Shown: positions 23,385-36,344 of the stretch, piece by piece
Layout: every line of letters starts with the position of its first letter
How positions within the stretch are numbered: position 1 is the first letter of the stretch
Origin: an uncultured Alistipes sp.
GTDB taxonomy: Bacteria > Bacteroidota > Bacteroidia > Bacteroidales > Rikenellaceae
Reading direction: 5' to 3'
DNA: 64,000 nucleotides
Assembly (NCBI GenBank): GCA_949283205.1
Contig: CASDSD010000020.1
Location: 1 to 64,000 of the forward strand
Made by a program: the position numbers and the translations under genes
Notes under the pieces: generated by a model
What the model was told of the DNA's origin: nothing
Database searches by the model: none
The model's input: the letters and a program-made list of their open reading frames with translations, nothing else

Positions 23385-24275
23385 ATGGAGAACAAAACCA
23401 TAATCGGCATAGGCGAGGCGCTGTGGGACATGCTCCCCGCAGGGCGGCAGCTGGGCGGCGCCCCCGCCAACTTCGCATACCACATGTCACAGTTCGGCTA
23501 CGACGCCACGGCCGTCAGCGCCGTCGGCAACGATGCCGCGGGCGACGACCTGATCTCGGAACTCGAGGCGCGCTCCCTGAAACACCTCATGCCGCGCGTC
23601 GACAAACCTACCGGCACGGTCGAGGTGACGCTCGATGCCGCCGGCGTACCGCAATACGACATCCGCCGCGATGTGGCATGGGATTTCATCCCCATGACCC
23701 GCGAGCTGCGCGACATGGCCTCGGCATGCCGCTGCATATGCTTCGGCTCGCTGGCGCAGCGCAGCGAGGTGTCGCGCGCAACCATACGTGCCGTGGTGGA
23801 CGCCATGCCGCAGGAGGCCCTCAAGGTATTCGACATAAACCTGCGCCAAAGCTACTACGGGAAGCAGGTCGTCGAGGACTCGCTCGAACGATGCCATATC
23901 CTCAAGATAAACGACGAGGAGACACACGCCGTGGCGCGGCTCTTCAACATGGAGACCGACGACGAGCGGCAGATATGCACCTGCCTCATGCGGCAATACG
24001 GCCTGCGGGCCGTCATCCTCACCTGCGGCACCGACGGCAGCCACGTCTTTCACGAGGGCGGCGTATCGTCGCTGCCGACACCACGCGTCGAGGTCGCCGA
24101 CACGGTAGGCGCCGGAGACTCCTTTACGGCGGGGTTCTGCGCCGCCCTGCTCGCAGGCTGCACAATACGCCATGCACACGAGGTTGCCGTCGCCACCTCG
24201 GCATACGTCTGCACCCGGCACGGAGCCATGCCCCGTCTGCCGTGCGAGATTACGGATTCGATCACCCCAAAATAG
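23385..24275 (+). CDS. PfkB-family carbohydrate kinase (fructokinase-like)
   Basis: Phosphorylates a sugar with ATP; 296 residues. N-terminal IGIGEALWDMLPAGRQLGGAPANFAYH is typical of fructokinase-type members, LKINDEETHAVA is in the middle, and the C-terminal ATP/anion-hole motif is DTVGAGDSFTAGF with the catalytic Asp in GAGD. The sugar is inferred from similarity only. The ATG at 23385 begins the family N-terminus, and a -7 box lies upstream; the frame is open for 26 codons upstream without family features. A 12-bp hairpin follows 130 bp after the stop. Confidence 0.88.
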   Translation: MENKTIIGIGEALWDMLPAGRQLGGAPANFAYHMSQFGYDATAVSAVGNDAAGDDLISELEARSLKHLMPRVDKPTGTVEVTLDAAGVPQYDIRRDVAWDFIPMTRELRDMASACRCICFGSLAQRSEVSRATIRAVVDAMPQEALKVFDINLRQSYYGKQVVEDSLERCHILKINDEETHAVARLFNMETDDERQICTCLMRQYGLRAVILTCGTDGSHVFHEGGVSSLPTPRVEVADTVGAGDSFTAGFCAALLAGCTIRHAHEVAVATSAYVCTRHGAMPRLPCEITDSITPK

Positions 24276-24698: not shown

Positions 24699-24730
24699 TT
24701 TGTTCTTAATAAATTTTACTATTATATTTG
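24699..24730 (+). promoter_or_regulatory. Promoter of the ilv-leu operon
   Basis: TTTG (24699-24702), exactly 20 bp, TATATTTG (24723-24730): a perfect Bacteroidota consensus. Expected transcription start is about 24736, giving a leader of about 213 nt that includes the attenuator. Confidence 0.85.
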
Positions 24731-24797
24731 CAAAGACAAAAAGAGGAAACCGCCGACGGCCGCGCCGTCAGGATATCCGACCAAACCGAAACTCGAT

Positions 24798-24854
24798 ATG
24801 GCAAGCAGTCTGTATATTATCATTAGCCTAATCCTCGTGGTCTTGCACAGATAA
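24798..24854 (+). CDS. ilv leader peptide (attenuator peptide)
   Basis: An 18-codon open frame reading MASSLYIIISLILVVLHR then TAA. Ten of 18 residues are isoleucine (4), leucine (4) or valine (2), including Ile-Ile-Ile and Val-Val runs, the end products of the downstream operon. It starts about 61 nt after the predicted transcription start and stops 2 nt before the antiterminator strand (24857-24867). Its position and composition match classical ribosome-mediated attenuation. No ribosome-binding site stands out, as is usual in this phylum. Confidence 0.85.
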   Translation: MASSLYIIISLILVVLHR

Positions 24855-24856
24855 CG

Positions 24857-24925
24857 GGAGAAAGGTTATGTATATATGCGGACGTAATTATATAAAGCCT
24901 TTCTCCATGCGGAGGAAGGCTTTTT
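24857..24925 (+). promoter_or_regulatory. ilv attenuator: mutually exclusive antiterminator and terminator
   Basis: Terminator: 24894-24906 (AAAGCCTTTCTCC) pairs with 24911-24923 (GGAGGAAGGCTTT), 12 Watson-Crick pairs and one G-U, loop ATGC, then a T-tract at 24921-24925. Antiterminator: GGAGAAAGG at 24857-24865 is exactly complementary to 24898-24906, extendable to 24867/24896. The two structures share the strand 24896-24906 and cannot coexist. A ribosome finishing the leader peptide would cover 24857-24867 and allow termination; one stalled at the early Ile codons would leave it free. Confidence 0.85.
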
Positions 24926-24949
24926 CGATATAAATAAAGGATTCGGACC

Positions 24950-26770
24950 ATGAAACACCAACTACGAAGCGCCGCGACGACAACGGGTCGCCGCATGGCC
25001 GGAGCAAGAAGCCTCTGGAGGGCAAACGGTATGACCAAAGAGCAGATGGGCATGCCCATAATCGGTATAGCCAACTCATTCACGCAGATGGTCCCCGGCC
25101 ACGTGCACCTGCATGAAATAGGACAATACGTCAAGTCTCTCATCGAGGCCGAAGGGTGCTTCGCCGCCGAATTCAACACCATAGCCATCGACGACGGCAT
25201 AGCCATGGGACATGACGGCATGCTCTACTCGCTCCCCTCGCGCGACATCATCGCCGACAGCGTCGAGTACATGGCCAACGCCCACAAGGTAGACGCCCTC
25301 GTCTGCATCAGCAACTGCGACAAGATCACCCCCGGCATGCTCATGGCAGCCATGCGCCTCAACATACCCACCATATTCGTATCCGGCGGCCCGATGGAGG
25401 CCGGCAACTTCCGCGGCCGCGGCGTAGACCTTATCGACGCCATGGTGATGAGCGCCGACGCCGCCTGCACCGATGCCGACGCCGACGAGATCGAGGCCAC
25501 GGCATGCCCCGGATGCGGATCCTGCTCGGGCATGTTCACCGCCAACTCGATGAACTGCCTCAACGAGGCCATAGGTCTCGCCCTTCCGGGCAACGGCACC
25601 GTAGTCGCCACGCACGAAAACCGCAAGCGTCTGTTCGCCCGTGCCGCAAAGATCATCGTAGAGAATGCCAAGCGGTACTACTTCGAGGGGGACGACTCCG
25701 TCCTGCCACGCTCGATAGCCACCAAGGCGGCCTTCGAGAATGCCATGTCGCTCGACATCGCCATGGGCGGCTCGACAAACACGGTGCTGCACCTGCTGGC
25801 CGTGGCGCACGAGGCCGGCGTCGACTTCACCATGAAGGACATAGACCGCCTCTCGCGCAAGATACCCGTATTGTGCAAGGTGGCGCCCAACGGATCATAC
25901 CACGTACAGGACGTAAACCGCGCCGGCGGCATCATGGGCATCCTCGGCACGCTGGCCGAAGCCGGGCTGATCGACACCACTGTCGGCCGTGTCGACTCGC
26001 CGTCGCTGGCCGCCACTCTCGAGAAATACTACTTCGGCTCACCGTCGTTCAGCGACGAGGCCCGCACGACATACCTCAGCGCCGCCGCAGGCCGTTACAG
26101 CCGCGAGATGGCGTCACAGGCGGAATATTACCCCGAGATGGACGGGAACCACGCCACGGGATGCATCCGCGACATGGAGCATGCCTACTTCAAGGACGGC
26201 GGCCTGGCAGTTCTCTTCGGCAACATCGCCCGCAAGGGGTGTATCGTCAAGACGGCGGGTGTCGACCCCGCGCTGTTCCGTTTCAGCGGCACGGCCAAGG
26301 TCTTCGAGTCGCAGGAGCAGGCCATGCACGGCATCCTCAACGACGAGGTGAAGGCCGGCGACGTCGTGGTGATACGCTACGAGGGCCCCAAGGGAGGCCC
26401 GGGCATGCAGGAGATGCTCTACCCAACCTCGTACCTCAAGTCGAAGCACCTCGACAAGGATTGCGCCCTGATCACCGACGGCCGCTTCTCGGGCGGCACC
26501 TCGGGCCTCTCGATAGGACACGTGTCGCCCGAAGCCGCTTCGGGTGGAGAGATAGGCATCATCCGCGACGGCGACACGATCGACATCGACATACCGTCGC
26601 GCTCGATATCGCTCCGCATATCGGACGAGGAGCTGGCAGCACGCCTGGCGGCATGGCATGACCACCGTCCGCAGAACCGCGACCGCGTGGTGCCGCAATC
26701 ACTCAGGGCATACTCGCTGCTGGTAAGCTCGGCCGACCAGGGCGCCGTGAGAATCGTCCCCGAAGAGTAA
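24950..26770 (+). CDS. ilvD: Dihydroxy-acid dehydratase
   Basis: Dehydrates the dihydroxy acids to the 2-keto acids of isoleucine and valine. The 606-residue product has FeS-ligand motifs [12 protein letters not shown] (Cys119, Cys123) and [19 protein letters not shown] (about 184-203), [16 protein letters not shown]-type catalytic context, and the C-terminal [19 protein letters not shown]. Length fits the family. It is the first structural gene of the operon, 25 nt after the attenuator T-tract. Confidence 0.98.
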
Positions 26771-26821: not shown

Positions 26822-28558
26822 ATGACATCAGGTTTCAAGGATATGGAGACACCCGAGCAGCCGAAACAGGCTCTTCCGCACATATCGGGATCGGAGGCGG
26901 TCATACGCTCGTTCCTGGCCGAGGGTGTGGATACCATCTTCGGCTATCCGGGCGGCGCCATCATTCCCGTCTACGACGCGCTCTACGACTATCGCGACAG
27001 GATAAACCACATTCTCGTGCGCCACGAGCAGTGCGCCGTGCATGCCGCGCAGGGTTATGCCCGCGCCAGCGGCAAGACGGGAGTATGTATCGTCACTTCG
27101 GGGCCGGGGGCCACAAACACCGTGACGGGACTGGCCGACGCCATGCTCGACTCGACGCCCATCGTACTCATAAGCGGACAGGTGGGATCGAAACTGCTCG
27201 GCACGGACGCCTTCCAGGAGATAAACTTCATCGAGATCACACAGTCGGTGACCAAGTGGAACTGTCAGGTGAAGCGTGCCGCCGACCTGCCCGAAGCCCT
27301 GGCCAGGGCATTCTACATAGCTTCGACGGGACGTCCGGGACCCGTGGTGGTGGACATCACGAAGGATGCGCAGGTCGGAATGCTCGACTTCGAGTACAAA
27401 CCCGTGCGATTCATACGCAGCTATCAGCCCCAGGCCGATATCGATGAGGACAAGATTCTCGAGGCGGTGCGCCTGATAAACTTCGCCCGCAAGCCCATGG
27501 CACTCGTGGGGCAGGGCGTGATCCTCGGCCATGCGGAGAAGGAGCTGCTCGCCTTCCTCGAAAAGAGCGGCATGCCCGCGGCGGCGACGCTGCTCGGGCT
27601 CTCGGCCCTGCCGTCGGACCACCCGCAGTATGTCGGCATGCTGGGCATGCACGGCAACTACGCCCCCAATATCAAGAACCGTGACTGCGACCTGCTGGTG
27701 GCCATCGGAATGCGTTTCGACGACCGCGTCACGGGCGACCCCTCGAACTTCGGCATCAACGCCAAGATCATACACCTCGAGATCGACCCCGCCGAGATAA
27801 ACAAGCTCGTCTATGCCGACGTGCCCGTGCTGGGGGATGTGAAGCAGACGCTTCCGATGATCACCGAGAAGATCTCGAAGTGCGACCACTCGAAATGGAT
27901 CGACGAATTCCGCGTATGCTACAACATCGAACGCGAGGACATAATCGAACCCGCCATCGAACGGCGCGGCCCGCACCTGCGCATGGGCGAGGTCGTGGAT
28001 GCCGTGGCACGGCAGTTCGATGACGCCATCCTTGTGACCGACGTCGGACAGCAGCAGATGTTCGCCTCGCGCTACTTCCGTTTCAAGCGCACGCGCAGCA
28101 TAATCACCTCGGGCGGTCTCGGGACAATGGGATTCGGTCTGCCCGCAGCGATCGGTGCCAAGATCGGCGCGCCGGAGCGCGATGTATGCCTCTTCGTTGG
28201 AGACGGGGGCCTGCAGATGACGCTTCAGGAGCTGGGAACGATATTCCAGTCGAACGTACCGGTGAAGATCGTCCTTATGAATAACGGCTTCCTGGGTATG
28301 GTGCGCCAGTGGCAGGAGCTCTTCTACGACCGCCGCTACTCGTTCACCGAGCTGACAAACCCCGACTTCGAGCTCATCGCCCGCGGCAACCATATACCCT
28401 ACCGCTGCATCGACAGCCACGAAGATCTGGACGACGCAATCACGGAAATGAAGGAGTGTCCTTCGGCCTTTCTGCTCGAGGTACGCGTCGAACGTGAGGA
28501 GAATGTATTCCCCATGGTACCGGCCGGCATGCCCGTAACCGACATACGTCTCGAATAA
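26822..28558 (+). CDS. ilvB: Acetolactate synthase large (catalytic) subunit
   Basis: Thiamine-diphosphate enzyme that condenses pyruvate with pyruvate or 2-oxobutyrate, the first common step. The 578-residue product shows the N-terminal FGYPGGAIIPVYDALYD, the catalytic Glu in ILVRHEQCAVHAAQGYAR, the FAD-binding middle (GMHGNYAPNIKNRDCDLLVAIGMRFDDR) and the C-terminal TPP motif GDGGLQMTLQELGT followed by MNNGFLGMVRQWQ. Met8 (26843) is an alternative start. The regulatory subunit gene follows 18 nt later. Confidence 0.97.
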   Translation: MTSGFKDMETPEQPKQALPHISGSEAVIRSFLAEGVDTIFGYPGGAIIPVYDALYDYRDRINHILVRHEQCAVHAAQGYARASGKTGVCIVTSGPGATNTVTGLADAMLDSTPIVLISGQVGSKLLGTDAFQEINFIEITQSVTKWNCQVKRAADLPEALARAFYIASTGRPGPVVVDITKDAQVGMLDFEYKPVRFIRSYQPQADIDEDKILEAVRLINFARKPMALVGQGVILGHAEKELLAFLEKSGMPAAATLLGLSALPSDHPQYVGMLGMHGNYAPNIKNRDCDLLVAIGMRFDDRVTGDPSNFGINAKIIHLEIDPAEINKLVYADVPVLGDVKQTLPMITEKISKCDHSKWIDEFRVCYNIEREDIIEPAIERRGPHLRMGEVVDAVARQFDDAILVTDVGQQQMFASRYFRFKRTRSIITSGGLGTMGFGLPAAIGAKIGAPERDVCLFVGDGGLQMTLQELGTIFQSNVPVKIVLMNNGFLGMVRQWQELFYDRRYSFTELTNPDFELIARGNHIPYRCIDSHEDLDDAITEMKECPSAFLLEVRVEREENVFPMVPAGMPVTDIRLE

Positions 28559-28576
28559 CGATTAAGCGCACACACG

Positions 28577-29155
28577 ATGGAAAAGGAGTTTATAATAATC
28601 ATATTTTCGGAGAACAAGGTGGGACTGCTCAGCCAGATAACCACCGTATTCACCCACCGCAACATCAACATCGAGTCGCTCACGGTATCGGAGTCCGCCA
28701 TCGAGGGGATATATAAATACACCATAATGGTGAAGAACGACCCCGACAAGGTGGAGAATCTCGTGAAACAGATCGAGAAGAAGATCGACGTGTTGAAGGT
28801 CTTCTGCTACACGCCCGACGAGGTGGTGCTTCAGGAGCTGGCACTCTACAAGGTGCAGCGCAGCCGCAATGTCGAGGATCTGGTGCGCCGCCACAACGTA
28901 CGCATCCTCGAGATACACGACGACTACATCGTTCTCGAGAAGACGGGACACCGCGACGAGATACGCGCCCTGTACCGCATGCTCGAACCCTACGGCGTAT
29001 ACCAGTTCGTACGGTCGGGACAGGTCGCCATAATCAAGTCGCGCCGCGAGCTGCTCAACGAGTATCTCGACTATGTCAACGACCGCTACCGTCGCTTCCT
29101 CGCCTCACAGCAGGATGGAGAGGCAGAGAATGGGGAACGGCAGGATCCGAAGTAA
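28577..29155 (+). CDS. ilvN: Acetolactate synthase small (regulatory) subunit
   Basis: Partner of IlvB that confers valine feedback control. 192 residues: N-terminal ACT domain (EFIIIIFSENKVGLLSQITTVFTHRNINIESLTVSES, about 4-75) and a C-terminal acetolactate-synthase small-subunit domain (about 80-170). The Asn-Ile-Glu-Ser-Leu segment is the valine-site signature. The last about 15 residues are charged and variable. It lies 18 nt after ilvB and 65 nt before ilvC. Confidence 0.94.
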   Translation: MEKEFIIIIFSENKVGLLSQITTVFTHRNINIESLTVSESAIEGIYKYTIMVKNDPDKVENLVKQIEKKIDVLKVFCYTPDEVVLQELALYKVQRSRNVEDLVRRHNVRILEIHDDYIVLEKTGHRDEIRALYRMLEPYGVYQFVRSGQVAIIKSRRELLNEYLDYVNDRYRRFLASQQDGEAENGERQDPK

Positions 29156-29220: not shown

Positions 29221-30267
29221 ATGGCAAAGATCAATTTCGGCGGCGTCGAAGAGAACGTCGTAACACGTGAGGAGTATCCTCTGTCAAAAGCACTCGAAAC
29301 GCTCAAGGACGAGACCATCGCAGTGATCGGTTACGGAGTACAGGGCCCCGGACAGTCGCTCAACCTCAAGGATAACGGATTCAACGTCATCGTAGGCCAG
29401 CGCAAGGGAACCAAGAGCTGGGACAAGGCCGTAGCCGACGGCTGGGTACCGGGAGAGACGCTCTTCGATATCGAGGAGGCTGCCGAGCGCGGAACCATCA
29501 TCGAATACCTGCTCTCGGATGCCGGACAGATCGCCGTATGGCCCAAGATCAAGAAGCACCTCACCGCAGGCAAGGCCCTCTACTTCTCGCACGGCTTCGG
29601 CATCACCTACAAGGAGCGTACGGGCATCATACCTCCCGCCGACATCGACGTCATCCTCGTTGCCCCCAAGGGCTCGGGCACCTCGCTGCGCCGCATGTTC
29701 CTGCAGGGCCGCGGACTCAACTCAAGCTACGCCATCTTCCAGGACGCCACGGGCAAGGCATGGGACCGCGTCATCGCACTCGGTATCGGCGTAGGTTCGG
29801 GCTACCTGTTCGAGACCACGTTCAAGCGCGAGGTATACTCTGACCTTACGGGCGAGCGCGGAACCCTCATGGGCGCCATCCAGGGCATCTTCGCCGCACA
29901 GTACGACACCCTGCGCGCAAACGGACACACGCCGTCGGAGGCCTTCAACGAGACCATCGAGGAGCTCACGCAGAGCCTCATGCCCCTGATCGCCGAGAAC
30001 GGTATGGACTGGATGTACGCCAACTGCTCGACCACGGCACAGCGCGGCGCTCTGGACTGGTGGAAGAAGTTCCGCGATGCCACGCGTCCCGTCTTCGACG
30101 AGCTCTACCGCGAGGTTGCCGCAGGTAACGAGGCACAGCGCAGCATCGACTCGAACAGCCAGCCCGACTACCGTGTAAAACTCGAGGAGGAGTTGCGCGA
30201 GATGCGCGAGACGGAGATGTGGCAGGCCGGCGCCGTCGTGCGCAAGCTGCGTCCCGAAAATAACTAA
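29221..30267 (+). CDS. ilvC: Ketol-acid reductoisomerase
   Basis: Isomerises and reduces acetolactate and acetohydroxybutyrate with NAD(P)H. The 348-residue product has the Rossmann motif [15 protein letters not shown] (35-49), [37 protein letters not shown] with the acidic metal ligands, and a C-terminal knotted domain of class I length. GVQGPGQ instead of the common GSQGHAH is the form seen in Bacteroidota and eukaryote-like enzymes. Codon use is more biased than in neighbours, consistent with high expression. Confidence 0.97.
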
Positions 30268-30337: not shown

Positions 30338-31834
30338 ATGAGCGAAAAAGTATATATCTTCGATACCACCCTCCGCGACGCGGAGCAGGTTCCGGGATGC
30401 CAGCTCAACACCATCGAGAAGATCGAGGTGGCACGGCAGCTCGAAAAATTGGGTGTGGACATCATCGAAGCGGGCTTTCCGATCTCGAGTCCGGGCGATT
30501 TCAACTCGGTGGTCGAGATCTCGAAGGCAGTGACGCGACCCGTCATCTGCGCCCTCACACGTGCCGTCAAAAAGGATATCGACGTGGCGGCACAATCGTT
30601 GGAGTTCGCCAAGCGTGGCCGTATCCATACGGGTATAGGCACCTCGACATACCATATCTACGAGAAGCTGCGCATGACCCCCGAAACGGTCATAGAGCAG
30701 GCCGTAGATGCGGTGAAGTATGCGCGCCGCTTCGTCGACGACGTGGAGTTCTACGCCGAGGATGCGGGACGCACCGAGAACGAGTTCCTCGCCCGCGTGG
30801 TTGAGGCCGTCATCGCCGCCGGCGCCACGGTGGTCAATATCCCCGACACGACGGGATACTGCCTGCCGAGCGAGTACGGAGCCAAGATCGCATACCTGAT
30901 GAACAACGTGCCCAACATAGACAAGGCCGTCATCTCGACACACTGCCACAACGATCTGGGCATGGCCACGGCCAACACCCTGGCCGCCGTCACAAACGGC
31001 GCCCGCCAGATGGAGGTGACGATAAACGGTCTGGGCGAGCGCGCCGGCAACACCGCCCTCGAGGAGGTGGTAATGGCCATCAAGTGCCACAAGAACCTCG
31101 ACTTCGAGGTCGGCATCGACACGCGCCAGATCGTGGCTACGAGCCGTCTGGTGTCGAACCTCATGCGCGTACCCGTACAGCCCAACAAGGCCATCGTGGG
31201 CCGCAACGCCTTCGCCCACTCGTCGGGCATACATCAGGACGGCGTACTCAAGAGCCGCGAGACCTACGAAATAATCGATCCGGAGGATGTTGGAGTTGAC
31301 CAGTCGAGCATCGTCCTCACGGCCCGCAGCGGCCGCGCGGCGCTCAAGCACCACCTCGCGGAGATAGGCTACACGCCCGAAGGCGAGGAGCTGGACGAAA
31401 TATACCAGCGTTTCCTGGAGCTGGCCGACAAGAAGAAGATGGTCACCACACGCGACCTGGAGGTTCTCGTAGGTACGGCCGCCTCACGCCGCCGCATGAG
31501 CATGCAGCTCACCGCGCTGCAGGTCGTATGCGGCAAGTCGAGCATACCGACGGCCACGGTGCAGCTCAGCTTCGACGGTGACACCTTCACCGAGACGGCG
31601 AGCGGCAACGGTCCCGTGGATGCGGCCATCACCGCCGTGAAGAACATCACCAAGCGTCGTGTGCATATCGAGGAGTTCCTCGTGCAGGCCATCACGCGCG
31701 GCAGCGACGACCTGGGCAAGGTACACATACAGATCTCGCACAAGGGCAAGACCTATCACGGGTTCGGAGCCAACACGGACATCGTGACCGCATCGGTGGA
31801 GTCGTTCATAGACGCCATCTCGAAAATAGCTTAA
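30338..31834 (+). CDS. leuA: 2-isopropylmalate synthase
   Basis: Condenses 2-ketoisovalerate with acetyl-CoA, committing carbon to leucine. The 498-residue product has an N-terminal HMGL-like TIM barrel with [13 protein letters not shown] (8-20) and the metal motif [15 protein letters not shown] (about 204-218), a linker, and the C-terminal LeuA dimer/regulatory domain (about 380-498, [20 protein letters not shown]). Ala15 occupies the position of the near-invariant Gly in the LRDGEQ signature. The ATG at 30338 begins the family start; upstream codons lie in the hairpin. Confidence 0.95.
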
Positions 31835-31850
31835 CAAATACGACAGGCAG

Positions 31851-33242
31851 ATGAATACGCTTTTCGACAAGATATGGGACGCACACACGGTGAAGGTCCT
31901 CGACGGAGACTCGTGCGTACTCTACATTGACCGCGAGTATATACACGAAGTGACCAGTCCCCAGGCCTTCGCCTCGCTGCGCGAGCGCGGCACAGGGGTC
32001 TTCCGCCCTTCGCAGGTTACGGCCAGCCCCGACCACAACATTCCCACGCTCAACCAGCACCTGCCCATAGCCGACCCGCAGTCGGCCGAGCAGGTGGCGG
32101 CACTCTACCGCAACTGCGCCGAGAACGGGATCACAATCTTCCCGATAGGGTCGCCGCGCAACGGCATAATCCACGTCATAGGGCCCGAAACGGGGCTCAC
32201 GCAGCCCGGCATGACCATCGTCTGCGGCGACAGCCACACCTCGACGCACGGCGCCCTGGGCTGCATAGCCTTCGGCATAGGCACCAGCGAGGTGGAGATG
32301 GCCCTCGCCTCGCAGTGTATCCTGCAGTCGAAGCCGAAAAGCATGCGCATAAACGTCGAGGGAGAGTTGCGGCCGGGCGTCTGCTCGAAGGACATCATCC
32401 TCTACATCATCTCGAAGATCGGCACGGGCGGCGGTACGGGACACTTCGTCGAGTTCGCCGGCTCGGCCATACAGTCGCTCTCGATGGAGGCGCGCATGAC
32501 CGTCTGCAACATGAGCATCGAGATGGGGGCCCGCGGCGGCATGATCGCCCCCGACGAGACCACCTTCGACTACCTCAAGGGGCGCGAGTTCGCCCCGCAG
32601 GGCAAGGCGTGGGACGAGGCCGTGGAGCGGTGGCGCACCCTGCGCTCGGACGACGATGCCGTCTTCGACAGGGAGGTCACGTTCGACGCCGCCGACATCG
32701 AGCCGATGATAACCTACGGCACAAACCCCTCGATGGGGGTTGCCGTGGGTGGCGAGATACCCGCAGCGACGGGAGATGCCGCAGCCCGCGCATCGTTCGA
32801 CAAGGCATTGGAATACATGGTATTCCATTCAGGCGAGAAGATGCTCGGCAAGAAGGTCGACTATGTCTTCGTCGGCAGCTGTACGAACGGCCGCATCGAG
32901 GACCTGCGGGCCTTCGCCTCGATAGTCAAGGGGCGCAGGAAGGCCCCCGGCGTGACGGCATGGATCGTCCCGGGCAGCAAGCAGGTCGAGCGCCAGGCCA
33001 TCGAGGAGGGCCTGCGCGACATCCTCGAGGAGGCGGGCTTCACGCTGCGCCAACCCGGATGTTCGGCATGCCTTGCGATGAACGACGACAAGATCCCGGC
33101 AGGGAAATATTGTGTCGCCACCTCGAACCGCAACTTCGAGGGGCGTCAGGGCCCCGCGGCACGCACGATGCTCGCCGGTCCGCTCGTAGCGGCCGCCGCT
33201 GCCGTGACAGGCGTGGTGACGGACCCGCGCAGCCTCATGTAA
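31851..33242 (+). CDS. leuC: 3-isopropylmalate dehydratase large subunit
   Basis: Aconitase-family subunit carrying the [4Fe-4S] cluster that isomerises isopropylmalate. 463 residues with [41 protein letters not shown], and the cluster ligands Cys344 in VGSCTNGR and Cys404 and Cys407 in [19 protein letters not shown] near the C-terminus is typical. Starts 16 nt after leuA and is followed 19 nt later by its small subunit. Confidence 0.97.
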
Positions 33243-33261: not shown

Positions 33262-33852
33262 ATGAGAAACAAATTCACAACACTCACATCGACAGCCGTG
33301 CCCCTGCCGATAGAGAATATCGACACCGACCAGATCATTCCGGCACGCTTCCTCAAGGCCACCACGCGCGAGGGCTTCGGCGCAAACCTCTTCCGTGACT
33401 GGCGTTACGACGCCGCCGGCAACCCCAAGAGCGACTTCGTCCTCAACTCGCCCCGCTACGGCGGCGAGATCCTCGTCGCGGGCAAGAACTTCGGCTGCGG
33501 CTCGAGCCGCGAACATGCCGCATGGGCCATCGCCGGTGCGGGCTTCCGGGCCGTGGTGTCGAGTTTCTTCGCCGACATCTTCCGCAACAACGCCCTCAAC
33601 AACGGGCTGCTGCCCGTGACGGTAAGCGAGGCCATGCTCGCCGACATTTTCGCCGCCGTGGAGCGCGACCCCGCAACGCAGCTGAAGATAGACCTCGAGG
33701 CGCAGACGATCGAGATCGTCGGCACCGGCCGCCGCGAGTCGTTCGAGATAACGGCATACAAGAAGCAGTGCCTGATGAACGGCTACGACGATGTGGACTA
33801 TCTTGTGAGCATACGCCCCGAGATCGAGGCCTTCGAGCATAAGCGCCGCTGA
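33262..33852 (+). CDS. leuD: 3-isopropylmalate dehydratase small subunit
   Basis: Swivel-domain partner of LeuC. 196 residues with [23 protein letters not shown] at the start, [19 protein letters not shown] as substrate-binding loop, and [18 protein letters not shown]. Length and motif order fit LeuD. 115 bp separate it from leuB, the widest gap within the operon; I see no promoter or terminator there. Confidence 0.97.
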
Positions 33853-33967: not shown

Positions 33968-35047
33968 ATGAAAAAGATAAAGATTGCCGTACTTCCTGGT
34001 GACGGCATAGGGCCCGAGATCGTGGCACAGGCCGTAAAGGCGGTCGATGCCGCAGCCGCCCGCTTCGGATACGAGCCGCAATATACCCACGCGGTAGTGG
34101 GCGCCGCCGCCATAGACGCCGTAGGCGACCCCTATCCCGAAGCGACGCACAAGACATGCATGGAGGCCGACGCCGTACTGTTCGGCGCCATCGGCGACCC
34201 GCGTTTCGACAACAACCCCAATGCCAGGGTACGTCCCGAGCAGGGTCTGCTCGCCATGCGCAAGAAGCTGGGGCTGTTTGCCAACCTGCGTCCCGTGACC
34301 ACCTTCGCCACGCTGCTGCACCGTTCGCCGCTGCGTGCCGACCTTGTGGAGGGGGCCGACTTCCTCTGTGTGCGCGAGCTGACGGGAGGGCTCTATTTCG
34401 GGCGTCCGCAGGGCCGCTCGGAGGATGGCACCACGGCATACGACACGTGCGTATACACGCGCGCCGAGATCGAGCGCATCTGCCGCCTCGGATTCGAGTA
34501 TGCGGCCAAGCGCCGCGGCAAGCTCACCGTGGTGGACAAGGCCAACGTACTGGCCACGTCGCGCCTGTGGCGCGAGACGGCACAGAGCCTCGCCGCAGAA
34601 TATCCCTCGGTCGAGACCGAGTTCATGTTCGTGGACAACGCCGCCATGAAGATCATACAGCAGCCGCGCCACTTCGACGTCATCGTCACGGAGAACATGT
34701 TCGGCGACATCCTCACCGACGAGGCGAGTGTAATAACGGGATCGCTCGGACTGCTCCCCTCGGCCTCGATAGGCACGGGGACCTCGCTCTTCGAGCCCAT
34801 ACACGGATCCTACCCGCAGGCGGCGGGCAAGAACATAGCCAACCCCGTTGCCACGATCCTGTCGGCGGCGATGATGTTCGAGTACGCCTTCTCGGACATG
34901 GAGGCCGGCGCCGCGATACGCCGTGCCGTGGATGCCTCGATACGCGAGAACTTCACCACGGAGGACATAGCCGCCGAGGGTGTCACGCCGCGCTCGACAA
35001 CCGAGGTGGGCGATTTCATCGCGCAGCGCATCGCCGCAGGCGAGTGA
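33968..35047 (+). CDS. leuB: 3-isopropylmalate dehydrogenase
   Basis: Oxidises and decarboxylates 3-isopropylmalate using NAD and a divalent metal. 359 residues: [57 protein letters not shown] with substrate arginines, [10 protein letters not shown], and the signature [20 protein letters not shown] followed by [13 protein letters not shown]. All are diagnostic of LeuB. It is followed 28 nt later by ilvA. Confidence 0.97.
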
Positions 35048-35075: not shown

Positions 35076-36344
35076 ATGAGTAACGAAACCAAAAAATATT
35101 TCCCGGCGCTGAACGACATCATGACCGCCGAGCATACACTCGGCGAGATACTCTCGCCCACGCCCCTCATGACGAACCGCAACCTCTCGGACCGTTACGG
35201 GGCCAACGTGATGCTCAAGCGCGAGGATCTTCAGGTCGTGCGTTCGTACAAGATACGCGGCGCATACAACAAGATCAAGTCCCTGACTCCCGAGCAGACG
35301 GCCAAGGGCATCGTCTGCGCCAGCGCGGGCAACCATGCGCAGGGTGTGGCGCTCTCGTGCAACAAGCTGGGCATCGAGGGCAAGATATTCATGCCCGTGA
35401 CCACGCCCAAGCAGAAGATCAACCAGGTGAAGATGTTCGGCGGCAGCGCCGTGGAGGTGGTGCTCTCGGGCGACACCTTCGACGAGTCGAACACGGCCGC
35501 CATGGAGACCTGCGAGCGCGAAGGCAAGACCTTCATCCCGCCCTTCAACGACCCCAAGATCATCGAGGGACAGGGTACCGTGGGACTCGAGATACTGCAG
35601 CAGAGCCGTGCCGCCGTAGACTACATATTCGTTCCTATCGGCGGCGGCGGCCTCGCCTCGGGCATAGGCAGCGTATACAGGCAGATGTCGCCCCAGACCA
35701 AGATCATAGGCGTCGAGCCCGCGGGTGCCGCCGGCATGAAGCTCTCGATCGAGCGGGGCGAGGTGACGGAGCTGGACCATGTGGACAAGTTCGTCGACGG
35801 TGCCGCCGTGCAGCGCGTGGGCGACCTGACGTTCGACATATGCCGGCAGGTGCTCGACGACATAGTGACGGTACCCGAGGGCAAGGTCTGCACCACGATA
35901 CTCTCGCTCTACAACTTCGACGCCATCGTGGCGGAGCCGGCCGGGGCCCTGAGCATCAGCGCCCTCGACCTATGCCGCGACATGATACGCGGCAAGAACG
36001 TCGTCTGCATCGTCAGCGGCAGCAACAACGACATCGTGCGCATGGAGGACATAAAGGAACGATCGTTGCTGTATGAGGGTCTGAAGCACTACTTCGTGGT
36101 GCACTTCCCGCAGAGGGCGGGCGCCCTGCAGGATTTCGTGAGCAAGGTCCTCGGGCCCAACGACGACATCACATACTTCGAGTACAAGAAGAAGACCAAC
36201 CGCGAGAAGGGTCCCGTACTCATCGGCATCGAGCTGCAGAACCGCGACGACTTCGCCGGCCTGACCGAGCGCATGAAACGCAACGACATCGTCTATGAGT
36301 ATCTGAACGACAACCCGGGCCTGTTCGAGTTCCTTATCGGATAG
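35076..36344 (+). CDS. ilvA: Threonine ammonia-lyase (single ACT-like domain form)
   Basis: PLP enzyme that makes 2-oxobutyrate, the isoleucine precursor. 422 residues: PLP lysine Lys59 in SYKIRGAYNKI, SAGNHAQGVALSC, PIGGGGLASGIGSVY as the phosphate-binding Gly loop, and VSGSNNDI. A single C-terminal ACT-like domain (about 335-422, HYFVVHFPQRAGALQDFV) suggests isoleucine regulation with one effector domain rather than the two of E. coli IlvA. The ATG at 35076 is chosen because the upstream open frame overlaps leuB. Being last in the operon puts all steps from threonine to isoleucine except transamination under the same attenuator. Confidence 0.93.
   Translation: MSNETKKYFPALNDIMTAEHTLGEILSPTPLMTNRNLSDRYGANVMLKREDLQVVRSYKIRGAYNKIKSLTPEQTAKGIVCASAGNHAQGVALSCNKLGIEGKIFMPVTTPKQKINQVKMFGGSAVEVVLSGDTFDESNTAAMETCEREGKTFIPPFNDPKIIEGQGTVGLEILQQSRAAVDYIFVPIGGGGLASGIGSVYRQMSPQTKIIGVEPAGAAGMKLSIERGEVTELDHVDKFVDGAAVQRVGDLTFDICRQVLDDIVTVPEGKVCTTILSLYNFDAIVAEPAGALSISALDLCRDMIRGKNVVCIVSGSNNDIVRMEDIKERSLLYEGLKHYFVVHFPQRAGALQDFVSKVLGPNDDITYFEYKKKTNREKGPVLIGIELQNRDDFAGLTERMKRNDIVYEYLNDNPGLFEFLIG

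Follow-up and report, generated by a model that had tools for sequence, protein, structure and literature searches.

Ribosome-mediated attenuation is a classical mechanism, and the leader that precedes the ilv-leu operon of an uncultured Alistipes sp. shares with the enterobacterial ilvL leader of ilvGMEDA a multivalent Ile/Leu/Val peptide, alternative A:B and B:C hairpins and a T-tailed terminator. Strand A of Escherichia coli ilvL begins before the stop codon, as it does in five Alistipes relatives and in most of the Phe/Tyr leaders considered below. The E. coli ilvL peptide comprises 32 codons, as compared to 18 in the window, by which we mean the whole stretch of 64,000 nucleotides analysed here. 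Unlike the enterobacterial element, that of Alistipes is preceded by a -33/-7 promoter of Bacteroidota and lacks Shine-Dalgarno enrichment, and unlike ilvGMEDA its operon contains leu as well as ilv genes.

In an abstract of Vitreschak et al. (2004) Bacteroidetes/Chlorobi are reportedly named among the groups with candidate attenuators, and thus a Bacteroides attenuator may have been predicted earlier. The Bacteroid-trp RNA (RF01692), which we take to be a Trp-codon attenuator, serves a different operon and gave no match in the Rfam scan of the window; it was presented as a cis-regulatory candidate of Bacteroidetes (PMC2864571). A transcript map of Flavobacterium psychrophilum, of the same phylum and another lineage, yielded strong clues for leader-peptide attenuation and named elements at pheA and hisG, and the section considered here contains no branched-chain amino acid leader, strand map or spacing rule (PMC9723704). 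A map of Bacteroides thetaiotaomicron noted short ORFs in long 5' UTRs as "reminiscent of leader peptides" (PMC7366714), and a review covering the his genes of the superphylum treats attenuation, in the passages considered here, for enterobacteria only (PMC8305728). Outside Proteobacteria the branched-chain amino acid operon ilvBNC of Corynebacterium glutamicum carries an attenuator, which belongs to a different phylum (PMC11857589). In the open-licence literature we found no description of a Bacteroidales attenuator of ilv or other branched-chain amino acid genes. The mechanism is already known in kind, and the conserved ilv-leu element of Bacteroidales is convincing as an attenuator by comparison among relatives. 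Based on our data we propose, with high confidence, that the element is a ribosome-mediated transcription attenuator that senses charged Ile-, Leu- and Val-tRNA ahead of the ilv-leu operon.

The first-pass annotation had claimed a promoter, an 18-codon peptide rich in Ile, Leu and Val, an antiterminator and a T-tailed terminator, and all of these parts can be read on the plus strand between positions 24699 and 24925. The promoter (24699-24730), which is by its motifs of the Bacteroidota type, consists of a -33 TTTG at 24699-24702, a 20-nt spacer and the -7 box TATATTTG at 24723-24730. Among 100 detected attenuators a TAnnTTTG motif lies within 130 nt 5' of the leader ATG in 91, as opposed to 7.7% of mononucleotide shuffles, and is accompanied by a -33 element in 79, as opposed to 1%. 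Shine-Dalgarno sequences before the leader ATG are not enriched (7 of the 100 detected leaders versus 8.75% in shuffles). The leader ORF MASSLYIIISLILVVLHR (24798-24854) starts with the ATG at 24798-24800 and ends with the TAA at 24852-24854, and 10 of its 18 codons specify Ile, Leu or Val; it is thus a short frame rich in codons for the end products of the pathway. Strand A, the 5' arm of the antiterminator or strand 2 (GGAGAAAGGTT, 24857-24867), begins in this copy 2 nt past the stop codon, and its pairing can be extended to 24874. Strand B, the shared strand 3 (AAAGCCTTTCTCC, 24894-24906), contains the stretch AGCCTTTCTCC at 24896-24906 that is complementary to A. To call this complementarity exact, as was done at first, is slightly too strong, as it includes one G-U pair (24866 with 24897). 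Strand C, the 3' arm of the terminator or strand 4 (GGAGGAAGGCTTT, 24911-24923), is followed by TT. With terminator arms at 24894-24906 and 24911-24923, the A:B and B:C pairings are mutually exclusive, placing an antiterminator and a T-tailed terminator that exclude each other upstream of a biosynthetic operon. Within the leader ORF, folds of the window locus and of the whole leader predict a protecting strand 1 at 24824-24843, on the plus strand like all other parts, with its partner at 24849-24868. The leader RNA of the window folds at -70.5 kcal/mol (z -4.76), a value that none of 200 shuffles equalled.

Downstream, the first presumed controlled gene is ilvD (24950-26770), which matches the NCBIfam dihydroxy-acid dehydratase above cut-off, followed by ilvB (26822-28558), ilvH (28577-29155), ilvC (29221-30267), leuA (30341-31834), leuC (31851-33242), leuD (33262-33852), leuB (33968-35047) and ilvA (35076-36344), each with at least one matching NCBIfam model above its curated cut-off. 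These nine genes lie on one strand, the plus strand, with short gaps, and are probably transcribed as one unit. A sugar-kinase-like gene, whose family scores are below the cut-offs, ends upstream of the leader at 24275. As the terminator arm ends just 27 nt 5' of the ilvD ATG, the hairpin might be thought to mask the start of ilvD and to attenuate its translation rather than transcription. However, the ilvD start is outside the hairpin, and both the window and the detected relatives have a T tract directly after the 3' arm (the T tail being a requirement of the detector), so that we consider control at the level of translation highly improbable.

To be recognized by the strict detector as an attenuator, an upstream region had to contain an ATG-initiated ORF 12-36 codons long, in which Ile/Leu/Val make up at least 7 codons and at least 38%, a T-tailed hairpin downstream of it and, close to the stop codon, an A strand that pairs with the 5' arm of the hairpin. 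These stricter thresholds were chosen once a looser version had been run on the same data (107/137), so that the detector was not blind. IlvD was searched for in 121 genomes of the same genus (28 with a match) and 295 of the same order (135 with a match), and we examined 137 upstream regions, 28 from genus loci and 109 from order loci. The order set comprises 109 of the 131 listed places that score above 600 bits besides the window's own, with low-scoring paralogue rows excluded; the 22 places left out include partial, interrupted and duplicate ones. The genus set leaves out L029, a partial ilvD, and L030, a distant paralogue. The full layout was detected before ilvD in all 28 genus loci and in 72 of 109 order loci (100/137 overall), whereas it appeared in none of 685 dinucleotide shuffles (five for each of the 137 regions) and none of 137 reverse complements. 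As the rule for an Ile/Leu/Val-rich ORF was by itself satisfied by 78 of the 685 shuffles, the peptide alone is weak evidence, while the combination is strong. Such an ORF was present upstream in 28/28 genus and 85/109 order regions; by the detector rule 24 of the 109 order regions lack one, and 37 in total fail the strict detector. L036, L050, L056 and L059 are among the undetected order-level ilvD loci with no Ile/Leu/Val-rich leader directly upstream.

As a positive control, the detector with a widened A window called all six E. coli K-12 leaders, ilvL, pheL, hisL, leuL, thrL and trpL, with the A strand of hisL misplaced (32 nt past the stop) and the last-codon spacing scattering from -15 to 44 nt. 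Named records gave 80 loci, of which three with less than 200 nt upstream were dropped; the layout was found in 48 of the remaining 77, including Parabacteroides gordonii and P. faecis, and in 35 of the 63 that were outside the first set. Beyond the order, 6 of 40 regions upstream of ilvD scored (4/20 of the same class and 2/20 of other classes), of which at least two are doubtful, L155 being far from the gene and L173 having its spacing off, and the underlying IlvD matches, 36-54% identical with one at 69%, may include other dehydratases. In this sample the layout is widespread in the order and sporadic beyond it. Seven loci (L340, L342, L348, L352, L358, L362 and L364) encode an IlvD that is 68-70% identical and come from bins titled Spirochaetes, Fibrobacteres or Desulfobulbaceae. 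The layout was not detected in six of them, the upstream DNA of L348 being too short, and either transfer or mis-binning could account for their presence in these bins.

Within the genus, covariation is uninformative, since A and B are nearly invariant in an alignment of 20 sequences, possibly because a single change would call for two more. Across the order both strands vary, and the end of B shows 43 distinct 9-mers in 83 loci. These 83 loci, including at most four of the 28 genus loci, were subjected to a swap test in which the A and B windows were picked independently of each other. Own partners paired with a mean of -12.76 kcal/mol as compared to -9.74 for permuted ones, the best of 2000 permutations reaching -10.64. 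For single loci, the own partner was matched by at most 5% of swaps in 26 of the 83, and the median locus was equalled by 16% of swaps. Judged by pairing energy, these data show that A:B complementarity is maintained with covariation in relatives. The core of the first-pass annotation, a ribosome-mediated attenuator before ilv-leu, is borne out in that the leader frame and the complementarity of A, B and C are conserved, with covariation, in related genomes. A likeness of A to the complement of the 16S rRNA tail was considered as a reason for its invariance and given up, because other lineages and the His and Phe leaders have a different A.

The control codons end at a characteristic distance from strand A. 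In the 100 leaders, the fraction of Ile, Leu and Val codons is 0.96 when the first base of the codon is 15-17 nt and 0.73 when it is 12-14 nt from the start of A, and falls nearer to A to 0.19 at 9-11 nt, 0.08 at 6-8 nt and 0.20 at 3-5 nt. In a step model fitted to genus and order leaders separately, the boundary is in both cases 12 nt before A, and 83.8% of the codons 12-36 nt from A are Ile, Leu or Val codons versus 14.2% of the nearer ones. The boundary is not absolute, as 15 of 72 order leaders have such a codon less than 9 nt from A. The leader stop codon was considered as its determinant and rejected: with codons touching A excluded, as with all codons, the stop-aligned fit was worse than the A-aligned one (log-likelihood -391 versus -349 for codons of the order set not touching A; bootstrap difference 23 to 65 in 200 resamples). 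In five leaders of the genus (L018, L019, L023, L024 and L026) the stop codon starts 10-11 nt beyond the first base of A. Except for a single Ile codon 4-5 nt before A, their run of control codons nevertheless ends 13-17 nt before A, as compared to 11-17 nt in other members. In these five the frame passes through a conserved GATAACGGGAGAAAGG-like stretch, the usual TAA being out of frame.

The front edge of a ribosome is some 11-12 nt ahead of the first base of its A-site codon. Given the 12-nt boundary, a ribosome halted at the final control codon would therefore just clear strand A, and we regard this spacing, read from sequence, as the strongest argument presented here for a ribosome-based mechanism. 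With this general footprint length, a ribosome at the control codons would leave A free and one at the stop codon would cover it. The suggestion that stalling at Val14-Leu16 would already cover part of A is not supported: with the front edge 11 nt past the first base of the A-site codon, a ribosome stalled at Leu16 would extend as far as 24854, short of A, and across the 100 leaders control codons run up to that same limit.

The same arrangement was found before other operons. We surveyed 22 Bacteroidales genomes with an IlvD match, hand-chosen rather than random and including that of the window, under somewhat looser structural rules. Phe/Tyr leaders preceded pheA in 19 of these 22 genomes and His leaders preceded hisG in 17, in each case with no call in 110 shuffles and 22 reverse complements; a narrower first pass had given 17/22 and 15/22, respectively, and some of the later calls of this survey (such as L200, L261 and L263) have implausible A strands. 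In the genome of the window itself, a leader with a His run, MIRFNHIHHHHILRKVR, and A, B and C strands lies upstream of hisG (L197), and a Phe/Tyr leader, MNSFFYKRFYYYRANGQEVAC, lies upstream of pheA (L249), its strand A starting inside the ORF. In most Phe/Tyr leaders strand A likewise starts before the stop codon. The codon boundary is 11 nt before A in the pheA leaders (A-alignment -102 versus stop-alignment -145) and 16 nt in the hisG leaders (-85 versus -102). Trp leaders were called at just 4 of 19 loci, and Thr leaders in 1 of 20 stretches, which were placed by an estimated gene start and may miss it. A leader-like MIRTQNWWWWHSTYSQKEVRS is found upstream of a trpE-like gene at L231, where no A/B/C call was made. 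It seems likely that Bacteroidales use attenuation generally over ilv-leu, pheA and hisG, and that the codon boundary (12, 11 and 16 nt, respectively) is an evolutionary footprint of the front edge of a stalled ribosome. If so, ribosome and RNA polymerase would be closely in step in Bacteroidales, whose leaders in this analysis are not enriched in Shine-Dalgarno sequences.

Conserved, Ile/Leu/Val-rich peptides of 15-28 residues resemble membrane helices, and the leader ORF could in principle encode a small hydrophobic membrane protein with a function of its own, the hairpins being merely its terminator. We give this explanation very little weight: the hydrophobicity is due almost solely to Ile, Leu and Val, with Phe, Ala, Met and Trp together making up 3-5% of leader residues, the end of the control run tracks strand A better than it tracks the end of the peptide, the identical layout carries His runs before hisG and Phe/Tyr runs before pheA, and strand A would be left unexplained. 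All three branched-chain residues are present in 97 of the 100 detected leaders.

Based on the attenuator reading, RNA polymerase would start a few bases past the -7 box, followed by a ribosome translating the leader. When Ile-, Leu- and Val-tRNA are amply charged, the ribosome would reach the stop codon and cover A, allowing B and C to form the terminator and transcription to end near 24925. Shortage of a branched-chain amino acid would stall the ribosome within the run of control codons with its front edge at or before 24854, and the free A would pair with the emerging B before C exists, so that no terminator forms and the nine-gene operon is transcribed. If the leader is not translated, strand 1 would pair with A and the terminator would form by default. 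We infer leader translation, termination, its relief by starvation and the strand-1 default state from these arrangements. This may provide a testable mechanism for branched-chain amino acid regulation in many gut Bacteroidales and make the leader a natural reporter for transcription-translation coupling in this phylum, and the 12-nt rule, by which control codons are suggested from sequence alone, could aid the annotation of leaders in the phylum.

Equilibrium folding is consistent with termination in two of these states, the terminator outweighing the antiterminator in 100 of 100 loci with a ribosome at the stop codon and in 96 of 100 untranslated leaders. The strand 1:A pairing is present in the fold of the window; across the family, strand 1 shows a weak excess over synonymous-codon shuffles (Wilcoxon p 0.036 and 0.020, median percentile 38 and 45.5). 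Since the terminator is convincing by sequence and is predicted to form in the untranslated leader, it might also act constitutively, or the RNA might sense a protein or a small molecule, as a riboswitch or T-box, with no role for the ribosome. Yet Rfam 15 gave no match at gathering score in the whole window and just two antisense matches, far below threshold, at E<=10. In three types of operon, moreover, the control codons fit the pathway, their runs ending about 11-16 nt before A, and we see only a slim chance for such an element.

Returning to the ribosome-mediated attenuator, with all of A free A:B outweighed B:C at equilibrium in just 26 of 100 loci, among them the window copy (A:B 0.79). 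The remaining members would therefore need A:B to be formed first during transcription, and we suppose that in these loci it does so as the RNA emerges. According to rough equilibrium folds of the window, stalls at Leu11-Leu16 give A:B of 0.40-0.73 and a stall at Leu5 gives 0.37. The expectation that Ile7-Ile9 matter most is contradicted by the same folds, in which stalls at these codons leave strand 1 available for pairing with A and favour the terminator, with A:B of 0.04-0.06 and a B:C probability of 0.94-0.96. Most of the codon ranking given in the first-pass annotation is thus not borne out. Stalls at the non-control codons Tyr6 and Ser10 also give high values (0.66 and 0.81), indicating that the stall profile is rough. 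We predict that the leader responds to Leu, Ile and Val jointly and that codons 11-16 contribute most of this sensitivity.

The leaders also differ from the gene that they precede in codon usage. The idea that rare codons, for example in the leu leader, raise sensitivity is mentioned, and called an oversimplification, in an earlier paper (PMC1183508). When the detected leaders among L001-L059 are compared with the ilvD genes that follow them, CTA, a rare Leu codon, accounts for 0.14 versus 0.02 in the genus and 0.25 versus 0.03 in the order, a seven- to eightfold enrichment, and GTC and ATT are enriched about two-fold.
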